A stretch of DNA of 64,000 nt from the NCBI RefSeq assembly GCF_014203095.1, contig NZ_JACHIG010000008.1, positions 248,001-312,000 on the forward strand, given 5' to 3'. Under the pieces are notes generated by a model, which saw only the letters and a list, made by a program, of their open reading frames with translations, did not search any database and had not been told where the DNA came from. The DNA is from Prosthecobacter vanneervenii. GTDB taxonomy: Bacteria; Verrucomicrobiota; Verrucomicrobiia; Verrucomicrobiales; Verrucomicrobiaceae. The position numbers and the translations under genes are program-made. Positions within the stretch are counted from its first letter, which is position 1, and each line of letters starts with the position of its first letter. Positions 37,157 through 48,593 of the stretch are shown in pieces.

Positions 37157-38452
37157 TTACTTCCCGATCTTGTACAGCGCCTTGTCTGTGCGGACAAACA
37201 GGGCGCTGCCATCGGCAATCGGACTCGCCATGATCGCGCCATCCATCGTGTTCTGCGCCAGGATCTTGAACTCCTTCGCGGCGTTCACGATCGTCACCAC
37301 GCCTTCGCGGCTGCAGAAGTAAAGTTTGCCATCCGCCAGGATCGGCGAGGCGCTGTATTTTCCACCAATGCGTTCGCGGTAGCAGGCCTCTCCCGTCTTC
37401 GTGTCCACGCAGCTCACGATGCCGCCGTCATCCACGTAGAAAATCAGGCCGCCATGCAGCACGGGCGAGCACATCTTGGGCGCGTTCTTGTTGTTGCGCC
37501 ACGCCACCTCAGGCGTCTTGAGCCCCTCGTATTTCAGCGCCACCATCGCCGACTTTCCATACGCAGTGCTGAAGTAGATCTGCTGCTCGTCCACCACCGG
37601 CACCGTGGACATCGAAAAGCCCAGCTCACCATAATGCACCTTCCACAGCTCGGCACCGGTCTGCGGATCGTAGCCATAAATGTTGTTCGCCGCTGAACTC
37701 ACCACCTGCGGCTTGCCATTGATCGTCGCCACCAGCGGCGTGCCATAGGCTTTGCGCTGCTGCGGGCGCGGGTCCATCTCTCCGCTGCGCGGGGTCTTCC
37801 ACGCCAGCTTTCCGGTGTTCTTGTCAAAGGCGGCGATGAACTGCGCGTCGCTGCCGTCAAAATGCGCGATCAGCCTGTCTCCATGCAGCACTGCCGTGGA
37901 GCCCGGTCCGTTTTCATGCATCACGTTCAGCTCCTGATTTTTCCACAGCACCTTCAGAGTGCGCGTGTCCAGCGCCACCGTGCCAAACGAACCAAAGTGC
38001 GCATACAGCCGCCCCTCCTCCAGCACCGGAGACGGCGAGGCATAGCTGTTGAGCTGATGCGCCCACTGCGGGTCCTTCACATTCAGCAGCTCGATGTCAT
38101 GCAGGATCTTGCCACTGCTTCGATCCACACAGACCGCACGCAGGCTCACTGAGCCCAGCACCGTCAGCGGCTGGTCTCCGGTGTTGGTTTCCAGCCTGCG
38201 CTTGGCCTCCTCAGCCGTGGCGGCGGTTTCCAGAGCAGTCGTCAGCCAGATCTGCTCTCCCCACATGACAGGGGTCGAATGCCCACGCCCCGGCAGCCCT
38301 GTCTTCCAGGCCACGTTGCTTGTCTCGCTCCAGGTGTCGGGCAGACCTGAGGCAGAGGCATGTCCTTGGGCGGACGGGCCGCGCCATTCGGGCCAGTTGC
38401 CGGCATACGTAGCGGTGGAAAGAAGCAGAAGGGCGGGCAGCAGTCGGGTCAT
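37157..38452 (-). CDS. Secreted PQQ-like beta-propeller protein
   Basis: A 431-residue protein with a signal peptide (MTRLLPALLLLSTATYA) and repeated PQQ/quinoprotein-type blades: NWPEWRGP, WKTGLPGRGHSTPVMWGEQIW, VALDTRTLKVLWKN, YGYDPQTGAELWKV. No dehydrogenase metal/PQQ site is evident, so a scaffold or binding role is more likely than an enzyme. This is a common periplasmic family in Planctomycetota and Verrucomicrobiota. An extra Met one codon upstream (38455) is possible. It diverges from the next gene across 58 bp. Confidence 0.85.
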   Translation of the reverse strand: MTRLLPALLLLSTATYAGNWPEWRGPSAQGHASASGLPDTWSETSNVAWKTGLPGRGHSTPVMWGEQIWLTTALETAATAEEAKRRLETNTGDQPLTVLGSVSLRAVCVDRSSGKILHDIELLNVKDPQWAHQLNSYASPSPVLEEGRLYAHFGSFGTVALDTRTLKVLWKNQELNVMHENGPGSTAVLHGDRLIAHFDGSDAQFIAAFDKNTGKLAWKTPRSGEMDPRPQQRKAYGTPLVATINGKPQVVSSAANNIYGYDPQTGAELWKVHYGELGFSMSTVPVVDEQQIYFSTAYGKSAMVALKYEGLKTPEVAWRNNKNAPKMCSPVLHGGLIFYVDDGGIVSCVDTKTGEACYRERIGGKYSASPILADGKLYFCSREGVVTIVNAAKEFKILAQNTMDGAIMASPIADGSALFVRTDKALYKIGK

Positions 38453-38510
38453 CATGATGCGAGAAAAAACGTGGCAGCAAGCGGGGAACTGTCTTTCACT
38501 GGCCACGATC

Positions 38511-39377
38511 ATGCGCATCCTGTTTTTTCTTTTTGTTTCTGCCGCCGCACTGCAGGCCCAGACGGCGGAGCTGGAGACGTACATCGAGGTGCGTCACGGC
38601 ACGCTGCCCATCGTTCTCACCGTCCCCCACGGCGGCAGCCTGAAACCGGCCAATGTGCTCGCTCGCCGCTATGGCGTGACAGGCACGGATTCCAACACCA
38701 TACCGCTGGCTGAGATGATCATCGAAGAGCTGGAGTCTCGCTACGGCGCCAGACCTCACGCCATCATCTCCCGCCTCAGCCGCACAAGGCTCGACCCCAA
38801 CCGCGATCTCGAAGAAGCCGCCCAAGGAGACCCCACTGCCGTGGCCGCCTGGCACCGTTTTCACGACAGCGCCCAGAAGGCCTGCGATACTGTGATGAAA
38901 AAAAGCGGCCTCGGTCTCCTTCTCGACATCCATGGCCACCGCCACCTGGAGCAGCGCGTGGAACTGGGCTACCTCGTGAAGGCAGACATTCTCAAGCACT
39001 CCGACGCGGAGCTGAACGCCGACACCGCCCTTATCGCCTCCACCTGCATCCGCGATCTCGACAAACGCTCGCCTCAGACCTTTGCCGAGCTGCTGCGCGG
39101 CCCCCAGAGCCTCGGCGGACTGCTGGAATTTCGCGGCTTCCGCTCTTTGCCCAGCCCCACCAGACCCAGCCCCGGCTTCATGGCAGGCTACTTCAGCGGT
39201 GTGTATGATGTCGCGGCTCACGGCTCGCGCAGCGGCGGCACGGTCAGCGCTATTCAGCTGGAATGCCCTTGGAACAATGTGCGAGATACTCCCGAGAACC
39301 AGCGCCGCTTCGCAGTGGCGCTGGCAGATTCACTCGGCATTTACTTTGAGGTCCACTTTGGCCGGAAGCTGAAGTGA
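38511..39377 (+). CDS. N-formylglutamate amidohydrolase-like secreted protein
   Basis: A 288-residue protein with a signal peptide (hydrophobic core about 3-14, cleavage near LQAQ). The family features are VTVPHGG-like LTVPHGGSL, SRTRLDPNRD and LLLDIHGHRH, which carry the probable zinc and substrate residues of the N-formylglutamate amidohydrolase fold. The secretion signal argues against the usual cytoplasmic histidine-degradation role. Its last 48 bp overlap the 3' end of the opposite-strand UT/TPR gene. Confidence 0.75.
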   Translation: MRILFFLFVSAAALQAQTAELETYIEVRHGTLPIVLTVPHGGSLKPANVLARRYGVTGTDSNTIPLAEMIIEELESRYGARPHAIISRLSRTRLDPNRDLEEAAQGDPTAVAAWHRFHDSAQKACDTVMKKSGLGLLLDIHGHRHLEQRVELGYLVKADILKHSDAELNADTALIASTCIRDLDKRSPQTFAELLRGPQSLGGLLEFRGFRSLPSPTRPSPGFMAGYFSGVYDVAAHGSRSGGTVSAIQLECPWNNVRDTPENQRRFAVALADSLGIYFEVHFGRKLK

Positions 39378-40841
39378 GCGCGCCGTCTTCGGCTGCGGCT
39401 GTCCAGGCTCTGCTTTTTTGAGCCTCTCCCAACAGCCGTCGGCCACCTCCTTCTGCGCGCAAAAGCAGCGGATGTCCGCAGGCGTGCATGAGGCCCAGTC
39501 CACCGGGATGCGCTCATCACTCAGTCCCCGGCGGTGCAGCCAGCCAAAGAAGGAAAGGCTGCCCAGCAGCGCCAGGTTGAAGGGCAGGCACAGCGGCAGC
39601 AGGGCCACACGCAGCAGCGCCTCGGAGAGCGGCTCCCAGGCCAGCGCCAGCAGCAGTGTCATCATCAGCATCCACATCACCGTTTTCACATTCAGCCGCA
39701 GATAGTGCCCGCCGAGCGCCAGCGCCAGCACCACCACATTCATGGCAAAGGCAGGATCTCCAAACACCGGCCGCCACGCCGAGCCCAACATGCACACCAG
39801 CACCGCCACCAGAGCTACGAGCGCACTCGTGCGCGAATGAAACAGCAAACCGATGAAAAACCACAGCCAGCACAGCAGCACACGTGTGGAGGTAAACTGC
39901 GCCGTTAGACTCAGATGGCTGGAAAGAAATCCGCTCCACGCCTTCGCATACGCCTCCGCCTTGCCACCAGAAAGCGTGGCGGCAAATCCGCTGAACGCAT
40001 CTGCAAACAGCGGCGCACACAACGCAGCCGTGGTGAAATGCCGCCGAGCTTCCTCAGGGTGTCCGGCCTGCAGCTCACACCAGCCCAGTCCATCCCATGA
40101 ATCGGCAAAAAAGGAATCCAGCGCCACCGCTCGTCGAAACGCCAGCACCGCATCATCATAGCGCCCTTGGCGGAAGCGGCTCCAGCCCAGCCCGTCATAC
40201 GCATCTGCCACGCCTATTTTCAGTGACAGCACACGCGAGAATGCCGTCTGCGCACCGGTCTGGTCTCCCCGGCGGTACAGGCTCCAGCCCAGCCCCGCGC
40301 AGCGGTAGGCCTCGGCCATGTCCGTGCTCACCTCCGTATTGAGAAAATGCTTCTCCGCTTTTTCAAAGCGGTTGGCCAGCAGCGCACGCCAGCCGCGTGT
40401 CAGCTCGGCGTCATGCACGCCGAAGAAGATGAGCGCTGTCAGCGCTGCCCAGGCTGCGACCACATACGGCAGACTGAAGAGCACATAGGGAGACTTATCC
40501 TCATGCATGCGCTCCGCCACCGGCACAAAAAAGAACACCATTCCTGCACACCCCAGCGCCGTGGCGAGCGCCTGCGCCCACAGCGGCACCTGCGGAAAGA
40601 GATACCACAGCGCCCCCAGCAGTGCGCCGTTCACGCTGAAGAGCCCCGTCTTCAGCACACTGTCATTCTGTGCCCTCCACAAGGCGAGGGCGGAGATCAG
40701 CAGCGCCCCGCCCAGGCTCATCAGCGCCATCTCTACCGAGAGCACAAACATCCCGACAAGCACGCATGCGCCCGTGATCCGGTTGTTTGCCACGAGCATC
40801 TGCCCGTAACCACGCAGGGTGTGGTCCAGCAGGCGTTTCAT
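39330..40841 (-). CDS. Urea-transporter-fold membrane protein with TPR domain inserted between the halves
   Basis: A 503-residue protein. Residues 1-145 resemble one half of a urea transporter (UT): LRGYGQMLVANNRITGACVLVG, FSVNGALLGALW and LPYVVAAWAALTALIFF. Residues 146-295 form about four TPR units (AYRCAGLGWSLYRRGDQ, AYDGLGWSRFRQGRYDDA, SWDGLGWCELQAGHPEEA). Residues 305-460 return to a UT-like half with HSRTSALVALVAV, FAMNVVVLALALGGHYL and LPLCLPFNLALL. This would be a transporter pseudo-dimer split by a TPR module. Permeation of urea itself is not established. The start overlaps the adenylating-enzyme stop (ATGA). It is the last gene of the cluster. Confidence 0.6.
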   Translation of the reverse strand: MKRLLDHTLRGYGQMLVANNRITGACVLVGMFVLSVEMALMSLGGALLISALALWRAQNDSVLKTGLFSVNGALLGALWYLFPQVPLWAQALATALGCAGMVFFFVPVAERMHEDKSPYVLFSLPYVVAAWAALTALIFFGVHDAELTRGWRALLANRFEKAEKHFLNTEVSTDMAEAYRCAGLGWSLYRRGDQTGAQTAFSRVLSLKIGVADAYDGLGWSRFRQGRYDDAVLAFRRAVALDSFFADSWDGLGWCELQAGHPEEARRHFTTAALCAPLFADAFSGFAATLSGGKAEAYAKAWSGFLSSHLSLTAQFTSTRVLLCWLWFFIGLLFHSRTSALVALVAVLVCMLGSAWRPVFGDPAFAMNVVVLALALGGHYLRLNVKTVMWMLMMTLLLALAWEPLSEALLRVALLPLCLPFNLALLGSLSFFGWLHRRGLSDERIPVDWASCTPADIRCFCAQKEVADGCWERLKKAEPGQPQPKTARSLQLPAKVDLKVNAE

Positions 40842-42163
40842 GCGGCGAGGGGAAGTTCAGAAATCACCAGCGGCACCTTATGCGATCCTGCGGGTGCGGC
40901 AATCACGGAGACAAAGCTCATCTGCAGATCTACCGCGCCGCCTAAAGCCTCATTCAGCGCCGCCTGCACGCCGCTTTCGACGCAGCCTTTCGACGCACAG
41001 TCCTCGATCACCACCCTTACCTCCAAAACCCCCGGCTGCTTCTGCACCACTTGGTACTGCGCCAGACCAGGCACCTCTTCAATTGCATTGGTGATGACAT
41101 ACGGCGAGATCAGCGTTCCGCTCTGCGCGCGCAGCATCGCGGCGCTGCGGCCTTCGATCTGCCGGATGCTCCGCGCACTGCTGCCACACGGACACGGCTC
41201 CGTCTCCCACCGTGCCAAATCTCCCAGACCGCGATACCGCAGCATAGGCGTGGCGGTGTTTGTCAGGTCGGTGATCACGATGTTACCCAGCCCGTTTGTG
41301 GGCCTTCCGTTTTCATCCACGATCTCACAGATCACATTCGTCTCGGCAATGTGCCACCGCGCATCATGCAGGCACTGCCAGGCCACCAGTCCGCCCTCCG
41401 TGCTGGTGTACGTCTCGATCAGCCGCGCATTTGGAAACACCTGCCCCAGCAGATGCTTCGTGTGTGCATCCAGCATCTCAGATGTCAGGTGGATGATTCT
41501 CGTCTGCTTCACCACCCGCTTCTGATCTCGCAGCTCCAGCGCAATGGCTCGCAGCGTCGAAGGGTAGGAGGAGACAAACTCAGGCGCTATGCCGAGCAGC
41601 TTGTCCGTGAGCTTGGCCACAGGATCATGCACCGAAAGCAGGCGCGAATCCGGCACCGTCGTGCGCAGGAGATCCGCGGCAGCGTAGTCGATGCTGTCCC
41701 GCGCCATGTCCACCAGATACAGCCCGTTGCCGATCGGCCTCCCCTGGCACCAGTCATAAAACAGCGCCGTGTTCCACGCCATGTAGTGCCAGAGAGACTC
41801 CTCCGTGCGCGCCATGCTGGCCGGGATGCCGGTGGACCCCGACGAGGAAATCCACCTCACCTCATCGCGATTGTCTTTGGAAATCAGCTCCTCCTTGCTG
41901 GCTGCGCGCAGATCCTGCTTGGTCAGAATCGGCAGCTTGGAAAGGTCATCCCAGTCATCCAGCATCGCGGGTGTGAATCCCGCCTGCTCAAACAGCCGCT
42001 GATAAAGCGGCACCTTCTCGTGCGCATGCTTCACCAGCGCGCGAAGCGTGCGCCACTGGTGTGCTCGCCGCTTCGGCGTGCTCCACCCACGCTGCTCGAT
42101 CACCTGATCCAGCGCGGCATGCAGCCGACGCCCGCGTGTGAGAATCTGTGTGGGAGTGTACAT
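40838..42163 (-). CDS. PaaK/CapK-like adenylate-forming enzyme
   Basis: A 441-residue member of the phenylacetate-CoA ligase-like branch of the ANL superfamily, which activates a carboxylate as acyl-AMP. The Ser/Gly/Thr-rich loop is SSSGSTGIP, the aromatic-T-E motif is YTSTEGG, and the ribose-binding Asp lies in RYRGLGDLARW. A CPCG pair sits in the C-terminal region, as in PaaK relatives. Substrate unknown; in this cluster it may activate an amino or fatty acid for the ATP-grasp or a missing acceptor. It starts 24 bp after the TPR gene. Confidence 0.82.
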   Translation of the reverse strand: MYTPTQILTRGRRLHAALDQVIEQRGWSTPKRRAHQWRTLRALVKHAHEKVPLYQRLFEQAGFTPAMLDDWDDLSKLPILTKQDLRAASKEELISKDNRDEVRWISSSGSTGIPASMARTEESLWHYMAWNTALFYDWCQGRPIGNGLYLVDMARDSIDYAAADLLRTTVPDSRLLSVHDPVAKLTDKLLGIAPEFVSSYPSTLRAIALELRDQKRVVKQTRIIHLTSEMLDAHTKHLLGQVFPNARLIETYTSTEGGLVAWQCLHDARWHIAETNVICEIVDENGRPTNGLGNIVITDLTNTATPMLRYRGLGDLARWETEPCPCGSSARSIRQIEGRSAAMLRAQSGTLISPYVITNAIEEVPGLAQYQVVQKQPGVLEVRVVIEDCASKGCVESGVQAALNEALGGAVDLQMSFVSVIAAPAGSHKVPLVISELPLAA

Positions 42164-42187
42164 GGTGGAGCACCTTTCTCGCTCAGC

Positions 42188-42835
42188 TCAGCGCTGCCCT
42201 GGCGGTGGCATCTGCCCTGGGTGCGTGATGGCAAACCCGTCGCGCACCAGGTAGCCCTGCGGATTGATTTCCATAAGTTTTTCAAAGACCGGTGCCGCCA
42301 GCTTTGCCTGCCCTTGGTTGATCTGCGACCAGCCAAACCAGCTCATGCCGATCGGCTCCTCAGGCATCAGCTTGTAGGCGCGTTCAAAGTACACCTCTGC
42401 CTTGCGATACTCCTGCTGGTTGAAAAGAATCTCACCTGCGATCAACAGCGTGGACCTGTGAAACTGATCAATCTTGAGCACTTCCCGCGCCTCGCGCAGC
42501 ACGTCCTCCGGCTTTATCTGGGCTTGATAGACATTCATCATGCCTAGATGCGGCGTGATCGCGCGGGGCTCCTGCTTCGCGGCAGTCGTGTAGTATTGAA
42601 TCGCCTTCACATAGTCCTGCTTGAGATACGAGAGCCAGCCAGCCCTCACAGACGCCAGGTAGGTTTCTCCTCCGGCATTTTTAAAAGCCATCACACTGTC
42701 CAGCGCAGCGGTGTAATCTTGGTTGGACTCTTCAGTCAGAGACTTCTGCCAGGCTTCCGAAATGGCGGCCAGTTTATCGGCGGCACTTGCAGCGCTGACG
42801 CAGGCAAAGGCGAGGATGAGAATGCATGTTTTCAT
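42188..42835 (-). CDS. Secreted TPR protein
   Basis: A 215-residue protein with a signal peptide (MKTCILILAFACVSAASA). The rest is helical and TPR-like: KQDYVKAIQYYTTAAKQEPRA, LIAGEILFNQQEYRKAEVYFERAYKLMPEEP and FGWSQINQGQAKLAAPVFEKLMEINP. It probably works in the periplasm as an adaptor for the UT/M23 protein encoded 19 bp upstream. Specific partners are inferred from position only. Confidence 0.75.
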   Translation of the reverse strand: MKTCILILAFACVSAASAADKLAAISEAWQKSLTEESNQDYTAALDSVMAFKNAGGETYLASVRAGWLSYLKQDYVKAIQYYTTAAKQEPRAITPHLGMMNVYQAQIKPEDVLREAREVLKIDQFHRSTLLIAGEILFNQQEYRKAEVYFERAYKLMPEEPIGMSWFGWSQINQGQAKLAAPVFEKLMEINPQGYLVRDGFAITHPGQMPPPGQR

Positions 42836-42854
42836 GGTGTGTGTTGGTAGTGGG

Positions 42855-45173
42855 CTATTCGAGGTCGCCGTTTGGCAGGGTGGGGGTGAAATCAGTCTGG
42901 GTGTAAACCACTTCGCGATCCTGAAACCGCGCAGTGAGATGGGTCAGCCCGCGGATGGGCTCCAGCGTGAATTCGATCTCGCGTGGCAGGTCCTCACCAC
43001 CTTCGCCCAGTGTCGTCACGAACTGCAGCCTCTGCGGCGTGGGATGCAGCGCATGGCGTGTGTTTACGCGCACGCCCGCATGTCCCAGGTAAGGAGCAAG
43101 CACGCCCGCCAATGCCCGGCCGTGCTGCTTTGACTGCAAAGAGACACAATCCTCCCAGTTCATGCCGCTCTGATAAGCGAATGGCACGGTGGGCATGGCG
43201 AGCGAGATTAATGACAGCAGCGACGAATGTCCGCCGGGACTGCTTTGAGTGATTTGCAGCGCATGCAGGCCGAGCACAGCCGTCAGGCTTTCTTTTCCAC
43301 TGCGCAGCAGGTAACGGCCGGACTCGTCTAGCGTAGTTGCGAGGGTTTCATGCGAGACCTCCCCTCCGCTGCTGACACGATACGTGGCCGCTCCGGGTGC
43401 GAGGTGGGCCAGCGTGCCCAGCACGGTGGTGGAAACTGTGGCTGGAGCAATTCGGGCTCCCACTTTGGGCACACCGGCAAAGTTCCAGCGCACTCCATCG
43501 GCGCTGCGTATGAAGAAGTTCGTCAGGCAGAAGGGCGCTGTGGGCGCGCCGGTTTCCGTCGTGACCTGGTTGTGCAGGTGGATGTGTGGCACCGGGCTGC
43601 GGCCGGAGTTTCCGCAGTAGCCCAGCAGCTCTCCAGCACCAACCCGCTGACCGGTCTTCACCAGGATGCCGTTCTTCATGAAGTGCGCCAGTTTCACGAT
43701 GCCGCCGTAGTCCAGGCGCAGAATCAGGTGATTGCCCCAGTTGCTGGCAAAGTTGCAACCTCCGGGCGCATTGTCTGCCACACCATCCACCACGCGGAGG
43801 ATCTCACCGGCACCAGGCGCACGCACTTCCAGCCCCTGCGTGTAATAGCGGCTCAGGTCGTCATCACAGCCAGGAGGGCAGGCGTTGCCACTGGCGTCAT
43901 GCACTTCAAAATCCAGCGCATGCTTCCACTCACCGCGGTGGCTCAGCTTGTCGTCAAATCCCTGCGTCACCGTCACCTCGCGCGCCGTGGGCAGCAGCAC
44001 ATGCGTCTCATGACGGTGGGGAAAGCGCGCATTCGCCAGCGCCAGTGCGGCGGCTGCCGCTTCCGGATTGTCAAACACACCCGCCGTCGGCAGCAGCGAG
44101 CCCGGCTTCTCACGCAGTCGCAGGCAGCACAGCAGACTCCAGATGGTCAACAGGTAGGGAAGCGGCAGGTACTCCCAGCCCGAGCCGCGCAGAAAATGCT
44201 GCACCGCCGCCACATGCAGCGCTGCCACGCCGCCGGCCACAAAAGCCAGCGCCAGACTGCTCCAAGATGGCACAAAGTACACCGCCCCCAGAGCCATGCC
44301 TGCAAGCAGGTAATTGTGCCCCGCAAACCAGCCCAGCCAGTGCAGCCCGCAGCCCTCCAGCAGCTTCACGATAAGAATGCCCCCGGCATAGCCCACAATG
44401 GCATTGATCATCGCCACCCGGGACCACATCAGCACCGCCAGCGTCACCGCCAACCCGGCCCACACATTGGGCAGAAACAAAATGGTACCCATGCTGCGCA
44501 GGAAGGCTGTCGCCACAAAGGGAAGCGCAGGCTCCTCTGGCAGCCCCATGTCCAGCAGCGTCGTGCTGGCCGCCCAGTGCGGGAAAAACGTCAGCAACGT
44601 GCCGAACGAAACCACAAAGGCCACGCTCAGCGGAGGCAGCCCGGCACGCAGTGGAAACCAGTGCCACAGCGCCGCCGAAAGCAGCAGAGTATACACTGTC
44701 ACCACGCCCAGCATGCCCCAGACGGCTGCCAGGCCCAGCGTGGAGCCGCGTGTGATCCACGCCACTGCCAGCGCGCTCAGAAACACGTTGTAGAGCAGCG
44801 TGCCATCCTTCCGCATCGCGGTGGGCAGCTGCATCAGCTTTGCAATGAAGCCGCCCAGCACACACGCACTCATGGCAAACACAAAGTACCGCGGCATAAA
44901 AAGCAGCGCCGCGCACAGCAGCGCTCCCGTTTTCCAGCTGCCGCACAAAAAGATGGAGCTGGCGGCACGCGCTGCCTCCTGCAGTGGAGCAGCGCATGTT
45001 TTCAGATAGGGACGCAGCACTCGGCCGAGTGCCGCAGTCCTCTGCTTGAGAGAGGACACACGAGTGGTGGGTCCTTCGAGAATGGCCATCACGGGGAGGG
45101 TAGATGGAGCTTCCGAGTTCATGGGTTGAAGGATTGAGAGCGTTCTGTCTGCTTGACCACCGTACAGCCTCAT
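42855..45173 (-). CDS. Urea-transporter-fold membrane domain fused to M23 peptidase
   Basis: A 772-residue fusion. Residues 65-355 form a polytopic UT-like domain: KTGALLCAALLFMPRYFVFA, LRSMGTILFLPNVWAG, SRVAMINAIVGYAGG, FAGHNYLLAGMALGAVYF and LPLPYLLTIWSLL follow the UT pattern of two repeats. Residues 395-545 are an M23/LytM metallopeptidase with zinc ligands H412 and D421 (SHRGEWKHALDF) and H532, plus active-site H497 (LAHF) and H530 (PHIHLH). The C-terminal 220 residues are beta-rich and unassigned. The start overlaps the decarboxylase stop (ATGA); an internal ATG at 45122 is possible. The peptidase should face the periplasm. Confidence 0.78.
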   Translation of the reverse strand: MRLYGGQADRTLSILQPMNSEAPSTLPVMAILEGPTTRVSSLKQRTAALGRVLRPYLKTCAAPLQEAARAASSIFLCGSWKTGALLCAALLFMPRYFVFAMSACVLGGFIAKLMQLPTAMRKDGTLLYNVFLSALAVAWITRGSTLGLAAVWGMLGVVTVYTLLLSAALWHWFPLRAGLPPLSVAFVVSFGTLLTFFPHWAASTTLLDMGLPEEPALPFVATAFLRSMGTILFLPNVWAGLAVTLAVLMWSRVAMINAIVGYAGGILIVKLLEGCGLHWLGWFAGHNYLLAGMALGAVYFVPSWSSLALAFVAGGVAALHVAAVQHFLRGSGWEYLPLPYLLTIWSLLCCLRLREKPGSLLPTAGVFDNPEAAAAALALANARFPHRHETHVLLPTAREVTVTQGFDDKLSHRGEWKHALDFEVHDASGNACPPGCDDDLSRYYTQGLEVRAPGAGEILRVVDGVADNAPGGCNFASNWGNHLILRLDYGGIVKLAHFMKNGILVKTGQRVGAGELLGYCGNSGRSPVPHIHLHNQVTTETGAPTAPFCLTNFFIRSADGVRWNFAGVPKVGARIAPATVSTTVLGTLAHLAPGAATYRVSSGGEVSHETLATTLDESGRYLLRSGKESLTAVLGLHALQITQSSPGGHSSLLSLISLAMPTVPFAYQSGMNWEDCVSLQSKQHGRALAGVLAPYLGHAGVRVNTRHALHPTPQRLQFVTTLGEGGEDLPREIEFTLEPIRGLTHLTARFQDREVVYTQTDFTPTLPNGDLE

Positions 45174-46609
45174 TCCCGGCTGCCGCAGAGCAGATGCTCA
45201 GGCACACGCTCCAGCCGCTGCACGTAGTCCAGGTTTTCGCGCTCACGGATGATCTCCACCCGCCCGTCCAGCCCGATCATCACCACCGCCGGCCGGTAGG
45301 TGATGAATTGCATGCTTTGCGTGAAATTGTACGCACCCACCGGATGCATCACCAGATGATCGCCCGTGGTCATCGCCGGCAGAGAGACCTGCTCACGGAT
45401 CACGTCGATGTTCATGCAAAGGCAGCCGTAGAGCTTCACCGGATGCTGCGCGCTCTCACGCAGCGCCTTCGCAGGCTTCACATTAAAACGGTACCAGTTC
45501 CCGCTGTAGAGGATGTTGATCCCGGCATCAATCACATACGCGGAACCCGTGGACTCTGGCATGTAAGCCGGAGCCTTCGCCGCCTTTCCTGCCAGTGTGA
45601 TCGGCCCGGAGGCGCCCGTCTGCTTCACCGCCACGATGCTGGTGATGAGATACCCCGCCTCATCGACGAGCGCACGTCCGCTCTCCAGGTACAGGCGCGG
45701 GCGGCGATCCCTCGGCAGGGTGTTCAGCGCACCCGCAATGGCCTCCGCATATTTTTCGATCGGCGGCACCACCTGCTCCGCAGGCTGGTAGGAGTAATGC
45801 AGCGTGCTGAGAGACGGGAAACCGCCGCCAAGATTCAGATACTTCAGCGCCCACCCATAGCTCTCACGGCAGCGCTCCATCAGCGTGATCAGCTTCTCAG
45901 CCGCCACTTTGTACGCATTCGGCTCCAGGATGTAGGTGCCGATGTGCGTGTGCAGCCCCTGCAAATTCAGCCGCCCCCTGCTTTCAGCGATCCGGCGGAT
46001 CGCCCGCCATGCCTCGCCATTCTCCACGCCAAAACCAAACTTGCTCCACACCGGCTGAATGCCAGCGTCCAGCCAGCAGCGGATCGCGATGTCGATGCTC
46101 CTTCCCTGCTCCTTCGCAATCGTGTCCAGCAGCAGCAGCTCGTCCCAGTTGTCCACCTGGATCATCGCGCCTTCGCTCGCCGCCAGCTCCAGCCCCGCAC
46201 GCGTCTTGTGCGGTCCGTTGAAGATGATGTCACGTCCGGCAATGCCGTTGCGCCTTGCCTTTTCATACTCAAACTCGCTCACCACCTCGGCGATCGAGCC
46301 CTCGCTGTGAAACACACGGCAGATCGCGTTGAGGTAGTTGGTCTTGTAGCTCCACGCAAAGCGCGTGTTCGGATAGCGGCTCTCAAAGGCCTCACGGGCC
46401 CGCTGGATTTTTTCGCGCAGCGTGCGCTCGGAGAAGACAAACAGCGGCGAGCCAAAGCGTGCCGCCAGGTCCGCCACCGGCACGCCGTCGATGCGTTCGC
46501 AGATGTTGCTGTTCAGGCCGTGCGCATGGCGGTTGCGGTTGGCGGCGCTGTTCTGGCCGCTGAGATGCCGGGTGATGGTCGGCGGGGAATAAGGAAGAAG
46601 CGTTTGCAT
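45170..46609 (-). CDS. PLP-dependent decarboxylase of the DAP/ornithine decarboxylase fold
   Basis: A 479-residue fold-III PLP enzyme related to diaminopimelate and carboxynorspermidine decarboxylases. PLP-Lys is in FAWSYKTNY. THIGTYI and LNLGGGFP bind the phosphate. LESGRALV replaces the usual EPGR, and CLCMNIDVI replaces the CESxD substrate loop. The C-terminal GAYNFTQSMQF and YRPAVVMI are typical. Altered substrate-loop residues mean it need not be LysA; a decarboxylated or modified amino acid for the cluster product is likely. The first about 35 residues are an unconserved polar extension. Confidence 0.8.
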   Translation of the reverse strand: MQTLLPYSPPTITRHLSGQNSAANRNRHAHGLNSNICERIDGVPVADLAARFGSPLFVFSERTLREKIQRAREAFESRYPNTRFAWSYKTNYLNAICRVFHSEGSIAEVVSEFEYEKARRNGIAGRDIIFNGPHKTRAGLELAASEGAMIQVDNWDELLLLDTIAKEQGRSIDIAIRCWLDAGIQPVWSKFGFGVENGEAWRAIRRIAESRGRLNLQGLHTHIGTYILEPNAYKVAAEKLITLMERCRESYGWALKYLNLGGGFPSLSTLHYSYQPAEQVVPPIEKYAEAIAGALNTLPRDRRPRLYLESGRALVDEAGYLITSIVAVKQTGASGPITLAGKAAKAPAYMPESTGSAYVIDAGINILYSGNWYRFNVKPAKALRESAQHPVKLYGCLCMNIDVIREQVSLPAMTTGDHLVMHPVGAYNFTQSMQFITYRPAVVMIGLDGRVEIIRERENLDYVQRLERVPEHLLCGSRE

Positions 46610-46638
46610 GGGAGGGTGCCGTAAAGGGTTGGAAAAAA

Positions 46639-47742
46639 TCAGAGGCTGCGGGATGCGGCGGGATGCTGAATGATCTCGCGCGGCTGGCGGAAGAACTGAC
46701 CGCTCGTGGTCAGCGCAGCCAGATCACGAATGTCGCCGGTCATGTCGATCGCATGACGGATGAAGAACTTGCCAGGAACCGCGTGGCGCAGAGGTTCGCG
46801 CGGCTGCCAGCCCAGCGCCAGCTCCAGTGCGGCGGCAGGCAGGTTGCAGTTCAGCGTGGAGGGAAAGTCGCACCACGCTGGAAACCGTGGATTGATCTCG
46901 ATCAGGCAGTACTCGCCCTTGGCGCCTTCCTCTTTGACAAACTCCAGTTCAAACGGGCCGTTCCACCGCAGCTCAGCGATCAGCGACTGCGCGATCGCGT
47001 CCAGTTGTGGATCACGAACCACCATTCCTCCAAAACCCTTGCCGCTCGCGGTGCGCAGCATCTTGCGAATCGAGCACGAGCCGAGAATCCGGCCTGAACC
47101 ATCTCCCAACCCAATGACGTTGTACTCCTCTCCCTGCACATTTTCCTGCACCAGCACCGGCGCGCCCCACTGTTCCATCATATGCCAGTAGGCAGCCTCG
47201 CGTGCGGCAGGAGTCACAGCATGCCTGGCTTCATAAAAGCGGCCTTTCACAAACACATTGCCGCCCAGCGATGCCGCCGCCTGGTGCAGCGAGCTTATAT
47301 CCGTCACCGCCACCGTTCTCGGTGTGCGGCAGTGCGTGCGCTCGCACAGCTCGGCCAGCTTGGATTTGTCTCGGCACTTGAAACTCGCCGCCGTTGGCAG
47401 GCAGGCATGGATGCCGCGCTCGCGCAGCTTCTCAGGCGCATCCACCAGCGGAGCCATTTCAGCATCCAGGCAGGGGATCAGCACATCAAAGCGCTCCACT
47501 TCGCGGATTGCGTCCAGCCTCTGCCAGAAGGCCTCCACACCCGCGCCGGGATAGGACATGGTAAAGGCCGCATCCGGCGCGTCCTCATCGCTGAACAGCC
47601 CGCTTTCCAGCGAGTCGTAAACAAGGCCGATGATGCGCAGCTCAGGATAAACACGGCGCAGGCTGCGGATCACAGCAGAACCCGGCTGGGGATTTTCACC
47701 GCGATGAAGCCCGGTGACGGCGATGACAGGAGATGCATTCAT
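46639..47742 (-). CDS. ATP-grasp ligase
   Basis: A 367-residue ATP-grasp enzyme resembling the carbamoyl-phosphate-synthase large-chain type: VLIPCLDAEMAPL, CRDKSKLAEL, NVFVKGRFYEA (ATP lysine), APVLVQENVQGEEYNVIGLGD, GPFELEFVKEE and CLIEINPRFPAWCDF (metal-binding Glu/Asn). Such enzymes form amide or peptide bonds by acyl phosphate. Together with a PqqD-like protein and a PLP decarboxylase this points to peptide or amino-acid conjugate synthesis. It lies 29 bp from the decarboxylase and 36 bp from the PqqD gene. Confidence 0.8.
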   Translation of the reverse strand: MNASPVIAVTGLHRGENPQPGSAVIRSLRRVYPELRIIGLVYDSLESGLFSDEDAPDAAFTMSYPGAGVEAFWQRLDAIREVERFDVLIPCLDAEMAPLVDAPEKLRERGIHACLPTAASFKCRDKSKLAELCERTHCRTPRTVAVTDISSLHQAAASLGGNVFVKGRFYEARHAVTPAAREAAYWHMMEQWGAPVLVQENVQGEEYNVIGLGDGSGRILGSCSIRKMLRTASGKGFGGMVVRDPQLDAIAQSLIAELRWNGPFELEFVKEEGAKGEYCLIEINPRFPAWCDFPSTLNCNLPAAALELALGWQPREPLRHAVPGKFFIRHAIDMTGDIRDLAALTTSGQFFRQPREIIQHPAASRSL

Positions 47743-47778
47743 GGGAGGATGAATTTCAGGGTTAAAAAAGAGGGCGGA

Positions 47779-48132
47779 TCAGTTCGACTCAGGGGTCAGT
47801 CCCAGGTGGACCAGCTCTGCCAGGAAGGACTCCAGGTCCCGCTCCGCCGTGCTGCGGCTCACCTCAAAGCGTGAGGTCAGGCGGTCCAGTATCTGCAGCC
47901 GCGTCATGCCATCGCCCAGTGCCTGCATCACCACCAGCGCCGTCGGGCTGGCTGTGAAAAACTCGCCGCTCATCGCATCAAAGCCAAAGCCATCCGCCTG
48001 CCAGGTCACGGTTTGGAAGTCAAAGGTGTCCACTGCCGGGCGGGCGGCGGTAGCTGGTACCCTGAAGGGAGATGGCTCCAGCTGCTGCTGGCTGATGGGA
48101 CGGTTCAGGGTGGAAAGGGGCGCGAGTTTCAT
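47779..48132 (-). CDS. PqqD/RRE-like peptide-binding protein
   Basis: A 117-residue protein. The second half (about 45-115) has the PqqD winged-helix pattern: a beta segment with SGEFFTASPTALVVMQALGDG, then MTRLQILDRLTSRFEVSRST and DLESFLAELVHLGL. PqqD-like RRE domains bind leader peptides or amino-acid substrates for modifying enzymes. The first 40 residues are Pro/Gln-rich and probably disordered. The ATG at 48132 is chosen; a GTG at 48153 would add seven residues. No other PQQ genes are present, so PQQ synthesis is not implied. Confidence 0.72.
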   Translation of the reverse strand: MKLAPLSTLNRPISQQQLEPSPFRVPATAARPAVDTFDFQTVTWQADGFGFDAMSGEFFTASPTALVVMQALGDGMTRLQILDRLTSRFEVSRSTAERDLESFLAELVHLGLTPESN

Positions 48133-48221
48133 GGCGGTGGTTGATTGCTTCACACCACATAGAAACCCGGCAGGTTAACCCTACCCCCGCAGCCAAGATG
48201 AATACGCGTTTATTTTTGCTT

Positions 48222-48593
48222 TCAGCGGTCCGGCAGGCGGCGCTCCGTAGGCGGGGCATCACTGGCGTTCAGCGCAGTCAGCTGATGAAGAATCAGCGTT
48301 TTGTTTGCCTGCTGCATCTGGCCATTCCAGAAGTTGTCCGGATCCATCGGGCCATTCCACGCCCTCCTCACCTCTGGCATGCCCTCGATGGTAGTTTCCT
48401 GCCGGACATCTTCCAGCATCCGCCTTCTTTGTTCTTGGAGCATGGGTTTCCAGGTCTGGTCTGCGGCTGCGGATTCCTGCTTTTCTTGATGCGCACTATA
48501 ATAGCGCACGCTCACCCACCAGGTCGTCGCGGGCACCGCTAGGGCGGCGATTAACATCACCCCCCTGGTTAATTTTGAGGATGTCGTTTTCAT
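48222..48593 (-). CDS. Small membrane-anchored protein at the head of the UT/PqqD cluster
   Basis: A 123-residue protein without recognisable family. One N-terminal transmembrane helix (about 10-30, VMLIAALAVPATTWWVSV) precedes a polar, helical, Gln/Arg/Met-rich periplasmic part that ends NASDAPPTERRLPDR. It is the first gene of the minus-strand cluster, 89 bp upstream of the PqqD-like start. It may be a structural or assembly partner; a substrate role is speculative. Confidence 0.6.
   Translation of the reverse strand: MKTTSSKLTRGVMLIAALAVPATTWWVSVRYYSAHQEKQESAAADQTWKPMLQEQRRRMLEDVRQETTIEGMPEVRRAWNGPMDPDNFWNGQMQQANKTLILHQLTALNASDAPPTERRLPDR

Follow-up and report, generated by a model that had tools for sequence, protein, structure and literature searches.

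In PMC7857480, the fold-III decarboxylase FigC is described as acting on citryl-capped ornithine, and a methionine in place of an acidic residue and a threonine in place of an arginine are tied to the larger, capped substrate. His357 is thought to contact the citryl group, and SbnH, AcsE, MccE and BtrK are placed in the same clade. Citryl-capped substrates are also listed for this fold in PMC8503589. For the urea transporter (UT) dvUT, PMC4357013 gives T130, E187, F190 and T294 as filter positions. Relatives of both proteins lie together at positions 39330-48593 (minus strand) of a 64,000-nt stretch of Prosthecobacter vanneervenii DNA (the window; host genome 6.66 Mb). In transcription order, profile searches place there a small protein without a family, a PqqD protein, an ATP-grasp ligase, a fold-III pyridoxal phosphate (PLP) decarboxylase, a urea transporter domain fused to an M23 peptidase domain (UT-M23), a TPR protein, a PaaK-like adenylating enzyme and a second UT protein that contains TPRs (UT-TPR). 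The parts are known families and their combination fits no known system tested here. In the open-access literature no description was found of the gene set, of a urea transporter paired with M23, LytM, PqqD or ATP-grasp, or of PqqD with ATP-grasp and a decarboxylase. The genes from PqqD to TPR are almost certainly a conserved functional unit, and the best reading of it is that an amino-acid conjugate is made and moved through a UT-fold channel, as an earlier annotation of this DNA (the original prediction) had inferred.

Conservation of the core

UT-M23 was the only anchor used to find related loci. A fusion profile (threshold E<=1e-60) detected it in two large phyla at about 9% each: in 34/395 sampled genomes from the phylum to which L017 (Flavobacteriales) belongs and in 34/398 from that of L019 (Nitrosomonadales). 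Surroundings were retrieved for 20 of the 34 matches in each phylum and for five matches from the phylum of the window. Same-strand genes within 6 kb of UT-M23 were then enumerated in 65 loci with family members as tblastn queries; 49 of these loci lie outside a close group of 16 (L001-L016) whose best UT-M23 segment is 72-84% identical to that of the window. Most inspected loci have the same partners. Among all 65, the decarboxylase was found in 62, TPR in 60, ATP-grasp and PqqD in 59 each, UT-TPR in 26 and PaaK in 12; among the 49 outside loci the numbers are 46, 44, 44, 44, 11 and 0, respectively. The genes are neighbors in remote as well as related genomes; had they not been, the original prediction would have taken the unit for an accidental grouping.

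Pairwise identities of three core proteins correlate with rho 0.71-0.83 in 48 loci, and also in 41 loci with one close-group member. Because this is well above the permuted maximum (0.19 for UT-M23 vs decarboxylase), the core genes diverge as a unit. The probability that unrelated genes came together by accident in one genome is virtually nil. Nothing speaks for it as regards the core, where it was rejected on the order that recurs in close relatives and across phyla and on co-divergence; it may be true of the small protein and PaaK.

Exceptions to the core are few. The outside loci without ATP-grasp are L018, L019 and L020, all short contigs, together with L138 and L139, and the TPR protein is missing in L053-L055 and L156. 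L019, L138 and L139 have, next to UT-M23, a fold-I Orn/Lys/Arg decarboxylase and an ATP-grasp of a second type (L019:3339-8469; L138:11661-16219; L139:5420-8167). The second ATP-grasp of L019 is PRK06524-like (526/684 bits) and has a homologue in L138. L019 also carries a C45 hydrolase. PqqD is stand-alone or follows a TetR-like region, the latter in ten loci retrieved from the phylum of L019 (L140-L144, L146-L149, L154); the domain order suggests that the TetR-PqqD fusion may be a regulator sensing the PqqD ligand.

In the phylum of L017 the most frequent order is PqqD, ATP-grasp, decarboxylase, UT-M23, a TPR-plus-barrel-like protein and the TPR protein, where barrel-like is a reading of sequence character and Pfam matches are weak. 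Of the 20 loci retrieved from this phylum, 10 have the TPR-plus-barrel-like protein, 6 have a different barrel-like family and 2 have yet another. A barrel-like protein of ~300 residues is present in 14 of the 20 loci retrieved for the phylum of L019. The TPR protein of the window (42188..42835, minus strand) has a Sec-like leader, and a hydrophobic stretch lies near the N-terminus in 50/51 homologues.

All eight minus-strand genes of the original prediction were confirmed at the coordinates it gave. That all eight form one unit is not supported. Of these genes, PaaK and the one for the small membrane protein count as local additions. PaaK was rejected as a core member since it is absent from all outside loci and from L011, L013 and L014, and the small protein is found only in the close group (tblastn match in 10/16 loci, 0 of L017-L020). 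UT-TPR is a local partner; its count of 11/49 is probably too high, owing to plain similarity of TPR or UT stretches, and true clustering is limited to 14/16 close loci plus L155 and L156.

Family assignments were examined with profile searches. The Pfam labels stood for UT (PF03253, 99.1 and 80.8 bits in two window proteins; cut-off 25), Peptidase_M23 (35.5 bits; cut-off 28.7), PqqD (PF05402, 38.3 bits; cut-off 23.4), the decarboxylase (Orn_Arg_deC_N, 114.4 bits; cut-off 23.4) and the TPR proteins (TPR models above cut-off); the UT and PqqD similarities, on which the original prediction depended, thus both exceed curated cut-offs. The ATP-grasp and PaaK-like labels fell below. ATP-grasp similarity is remote (PF15632 27.2 bits, cut-off 29.1; NCBIfam PRK12767 64.2 bits, cut-off 390), and the PaaK-like label comes from sub-cut-off NCBIfam matches only (DVU1553_fam_AMP 117.5/300; PaaK 83.8/646). 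The small protein (48222..48593) has an N-terminal hydrophobic stretch and no Pfam or NCBIfam match; it is peripheral and probably not core.

PaaK (40838..42163) and UT-TPR (39330..40841), both on the minus strand, share an ATGA overlap (40838-40841) that is secure, and the 4-base overlap is also kept in L001. In UT-TPR both UT and TPR are present as predicted, with the correction that the TPR block sits between the UT halves, the UT match falling in two stretches. A weakly N-formylglutamate-amidohydrolase-like gene on the plus strand (38094-39377; 24.5 bits, below the cut-off of 28.9) overlaps the 3' end of UT-TPR tail to tail over 48 bases. In L001, L003, L005, L010 and L013 the matches to these two proteins overlap as well.

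Gene order is kept, for the genes present, in all 16 close loci. PqqD, ATP-grasp, decarboxylase, UT-M23 and TPR are all present in 15/16, and L012 begins within the decarboxylase at a contig end. In the three close loci without PaaK, UT-TPR directly follows TPR. L009 has PaaK only as a fragment, and in L008 PaaK and nearly all of UT-TPR are gone, with the last 15 UT-TPR residues directly behind TPR. Cluster-bearing records are labelled Prosthecobacter sp. or Verrucomicrobiaceae bacterium, for example; L011 is labelled Akkermansia muciniphila.

Within the family sample the fusion was found in 20/68 genomes, namely 20/48 of the genus of the window and 0/20 from the remaining genera; in two of the 20 genomes the copy is divergent (35-36% identity). 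In the wider phylum, 20/288 genomes match at E<=1e-10. Six of these matches span both UT and M23 (the host genome, G278, G209, G189, G186 and G023), and the remaining 14 genomes were rejected as cluster members because their matches cover the M23 part only. Both flanks are kept in 5/6 cluster-bearing loci examined, the exception being L016. A clean empty site was not seen in ten congeners that lack the cluster: the right-flank permease is present, and 0/3 tested left-flank genes lie within the surrounding 16-20 kb. LysA-like paralogues in two cluster-lacking genomes, G199 and G187, were rejected as cluster remnants, with a 25% match in one, none in the other, and no other cluster gene adjoining.

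The decarboxylase and its soluble partners

The cluster decarboxylase (45170..46609, minus strand) is a distinct subfamily and not LysA. The host genome has a separate LysA that scores 484 bits, and the LysA model TIGR01048 gives the cluster enzyme 224.9 bits against a cut-off of 297.9. The PLP-binding Lys89 is kept in 56/57 cluster decarboxylases and the catalytic Cys398 in 57/57. All 57 have C-M-N-I-D where the LysA of the host genome has C-E-S-G-D, Thr or Ser at position 369 where LysA has the specificity-helix Arg, and an invariant W372. A LysA paralogue was therefore rejected by both score and active site, in which Met and Thr/Ser take the place of the acidic residue and Arg. The Exosortase A system decarboxylase (TIGR03099) was also rejected (129.8/478 bits). 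In the PDB, N-citrylornithine decarboxylase comes closest by sequence (173.8 bits), and the FslC/FigC model NF041039 gives 195.2/500 bits, below cut-off. Because Met adjoins the catalytic Cys as it does in N-citrylornithine decarboxylase, the cluster enzyme probably acts on an amide-capped amino acid.

The ATP-grasp ligase (46639..47742, minus strand) is CarB-like, and K126, K166, E265, E267, E282, N284 and R286 are invariant in 51/51 homologues. The PqqD protein (47779..48132, minus strand) most likely starts at 48132. Its scores with the HPr-rel-A model TIGR04353 are 29.0 bits in the window and 34.6 in L118; since the curated cut-off is 35 bits, membership in the HPr-rel-A system was rejected.

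PqqD-type domains are peptide chaperones in several pathways for ribosomally synthesized and post-translationally modified peptides, going by NCBIfam names. We wondered whether PqqD might bind a precursor that the ligase and decarboxylase modify, with the M23 domain as a cytoplasmic leader peptidase and the UT and barrel as exporters. The core is nearly contiguous and in most loci leaves no room inside it for a precursor, counting genes of at least 70 aa and with no dedicated precursor search, and a peptide pathway of this kind is very unlikely.

Together, these results lead us to favor somewhat the proposal that the core makes a decarboxylated amide conjugate. Judging by their families, the ligase, the decarboxylase and PqqD are soluble proteins, which opens the product to direct testing.

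The UT-M23 fusion

UT-M23 occupies 42855..45122 (minus strand) with an open frame to 45173. The codon of Met18 begins at 45122. tblastn matches start at residue 16-24 in 13/16 close relatives, and at exactly residue 18 in six. Because matches in relatives begin around Met18, translation probably starts at 45122, and the second ATGA overlap of the original prediction, between decarboxylase and UT-M23, is therefore doubtful.

The UT domain matches PF03253 over its whole length (positions 5-289 of 292). By sequence and model it resembles dvUT and the mammalian UTs; Foldseek aligned the UT-M23 model with dvUT (TMt 0.78) and with the M23 enzyme EnpA (TMt 0.69). The Yut model TIGR03441 was rejected at 41.3/274.6 bits. 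Of the dvUT filter positions named in PMC4357013, that of T130 is Ser/Thr in 64/66 UT-M23 proteins and that of F190 is Phe in 62/66. This retention of the Phe slot and the central hydroxyl, and the passive conduction of urea by UT members of known function, would suit a cluster that takes up and uses a small amide, with the UT importing urea-like amides and the enzymes and M23 processing them. An ATP-consuming ligase and a conjugate-type decarboxylase suit synthesis over breakdown, and neither a urease nor an amidase came up repeatedly in the clusters found across many loci, though no search was aimed at them. We consider uptake quite unlikely.

The M23 domain retains H412, D421, H497, H530 and H532 in 66/66 proteins, which we take to be its zinc-binding and catalytic residues, and Cys520 in 61/66. 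Urea transporter topology puts both ends of the UT domain inside. With segment borders set by hand on L017, presumed inner segments carry 10-17 K+R per 100 residues vs 0.1-7 on outer segments, and there is more K+R inside in 66/66 proteins when both tails are counted. Because of this topology and charge distribution, the M23 domain probably faces the cytoplasm.

The subtype of the M23 domain was examined in a plasmid collection only, with UT-M23 of L118 as query (E<=1e-20). Six plasmid records match, all over the M23 stretch alone, of which five are haloarchaeal and one is from Thermus. Haloarchaea have no murein. Since they carry relatives of this domain, the subtype need not act on murein. 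The three plasmid relatives that were aligned (L172, L173, L174), from haloarchaea and a Thermus plasmid, are membrane-anchored M23 proteins of the same subtype, and the Haladaptatus relative lies upstream of nitrile hydratase genes.

These results bear on whether the cluster tailors the cell wall, with a periplasmic M23 domain and an amine or amide attached to or released from murein. M23 enzymes of known function are mostly murein hydrolases, as NCBIfam and PDB matches indicate, and the TPR proteins look exported. Against this stand the topology and charges that put M23 inside, and the fact that the closest M23 stretches on plasmids are haloarchaeal in five records out of six. Wall tailoring is unlikely, and the suggestion in the original prediction that M23 acts on the wall outside is, on the same two grounds, not supported. 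We infer instead that the M23 substrate is intracellular and not murein.

Other genes lie near UT-M23 in three loci: FecR-like proteins in L155 and L156, an asparagine-synthase-like gene in L156 with a possible remnant of one in L155, and, by eye, a carbamoyltransferase-like gene in L157. UT-M23 matches contain an in-frame stop in G361, G407 and G415 and are split in two pieces in G296, so some copies may be decaying.

A possible pathway and known systems

The core may operate as follows. The ATP-grasp enzyme would cap an amino acid through an amide bond, most likely at the side chain of a basic one, and PqqD would present the substrate or scaffold the enzymes. By the logic of N-citrylornithine decarboxylase, the fold-III enzyme would strip the alpha-carboxylate of the capped amino acid to give an amine conjugate resembling an N-acyl-diamine. 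A minority of loci would instead use a fold-I Orn/Lys/Arg decarboxylase and another type of ATP-grasp for these two steps. The M23 domain, hung from the UT channel on its cytoplasmic side, would trim or hydrolyze the compound. A small neutral amide would pass the UT pore, and its way across the outer membrane would lead through periplasmic TPR proteins, together with a barrel-like outer-membrane protein in loci that have one.

That L019, L138 and L139 have swapped in a non-homologous fold-I decarboxylase for basic amino acids counts in favor of this pathway. So do the co-occurrence and co-divergence of the core, the FigC-like replacements in the decarboxylase, the pore residues kept at the T130 and F190 positions, the inner K+R excess with tails counted and the haloarchaeal relatives of the M23 domain. 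PMC7857480 describes two rhizoferrin routes that begin with decarboxylation of the free amino acid, and by analogy the swap would fit such a route.

Several observations weigh against the pathway. The FigC clade of PMC7857480 also holds DAPDC and D-ODC, which act on free amino acids. Because the position of FigC His357 is Ile in 57/57 cluster enzymes, the cap is not expected to be citrate-like. In G288, a genome of 1.9 Mb, the cluster enzyme is the only LysA-family match. No conclusions can be drawn from the weak ATP-grasp model (pLDDT 51), whose Foldseek matches are CarB-like proteins, biotin carboxylases and two L-amino-acid ligases, and the UT-M23 model is moderate (mean pLDDT 59) and likewise weak for this purpose. 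At the dvUT filter positions of PMC4357013, E187 is kept in 0/66 proteins (Thr 19, Ala 19, Ser 12, others) and T294 corresponds to Pro in all 17 of the close group and to Ser, Ala, Thr or Val elsewhere. Because E187 is never kept and T294 is changed, the pore may not conduct urea-like molecules; from its residues it looks related but retuned. Without the two tails, more K+R lies inside in only 36/66 UT-M23 proteins. UT channels are passive, so active export through one would be odd. Finally, the outer-membrane barrel is proposed from the character of the sequence, and its Pfam hits are weak.

Taken as a whole, a system for biosynthesis and passage is a tentative proposal. That the compound, or part of it, passes the UT channel with a cytoplasmic M23 domain in control is more doubtful. 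A widespread envelope-spanning pathway, in which a UT-fold channel and a cytoplasmic M23 zinc hydrolase act on a self-made, amine-ended amide metabolite, is rather speculative and we lean against it. If true, it would mean a new class of translocated small amide, a second, non-urea job for UT-fold channels, and a textbook murein-hydrolase fold moved into the cytoplasm with an intracellular, non-murein substrate.

With FigC/FslC of rhizoferrin synthesis (PMC7857480) the cluster decarboxylase shares fold III, the Met next to the catalytic Cys, Thr/Ser at the position of the specificity-helix Arg of LysA, and Tyr at the position of FigC Y331. It differs in its low model score and in Ile for His357, and its partner is an ATP-grasp enzyme rather than a NIS synthetase.

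The butirosin enzyme BtrK was met as PDB matches 2j66 and 7ru7 of the cluster decarboxylase. Together with BtrJ, which we take to be its ATP-grasp ligase, it resembles the cluster in pairing such a ligase with a fold-III decarboxylase that acts on a conjugate. The butirosin side-chain route uses an acyl carrier protein. None is among the cluster proteins scanned, with no dedicated search, and the butirosin route is not known to involve a channel or hydrolase.

The haloarchaeal and Thermus membrane-anchored M23 proteins share the motifs SH...A.DF and CG.SG.S.EPH.H with the cluster. They are without UT, and no ATP-grasp or decarboxylase is annotated in the three short stretches viewed. With dvUT, UT-A and UT-B the cluster protein shares the whole UT fold and, for the most part, the Phe slot and central hydroxyl; it differs from them in its C-terminal M23 domain and in the loss of E187. 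With LytM, lysostaphin, MepM and ShyA it shares the M23 fold and the invariant His/Asp set. In the cluster this M23 domain is fused behind a channel and is probably cytoplasmic.

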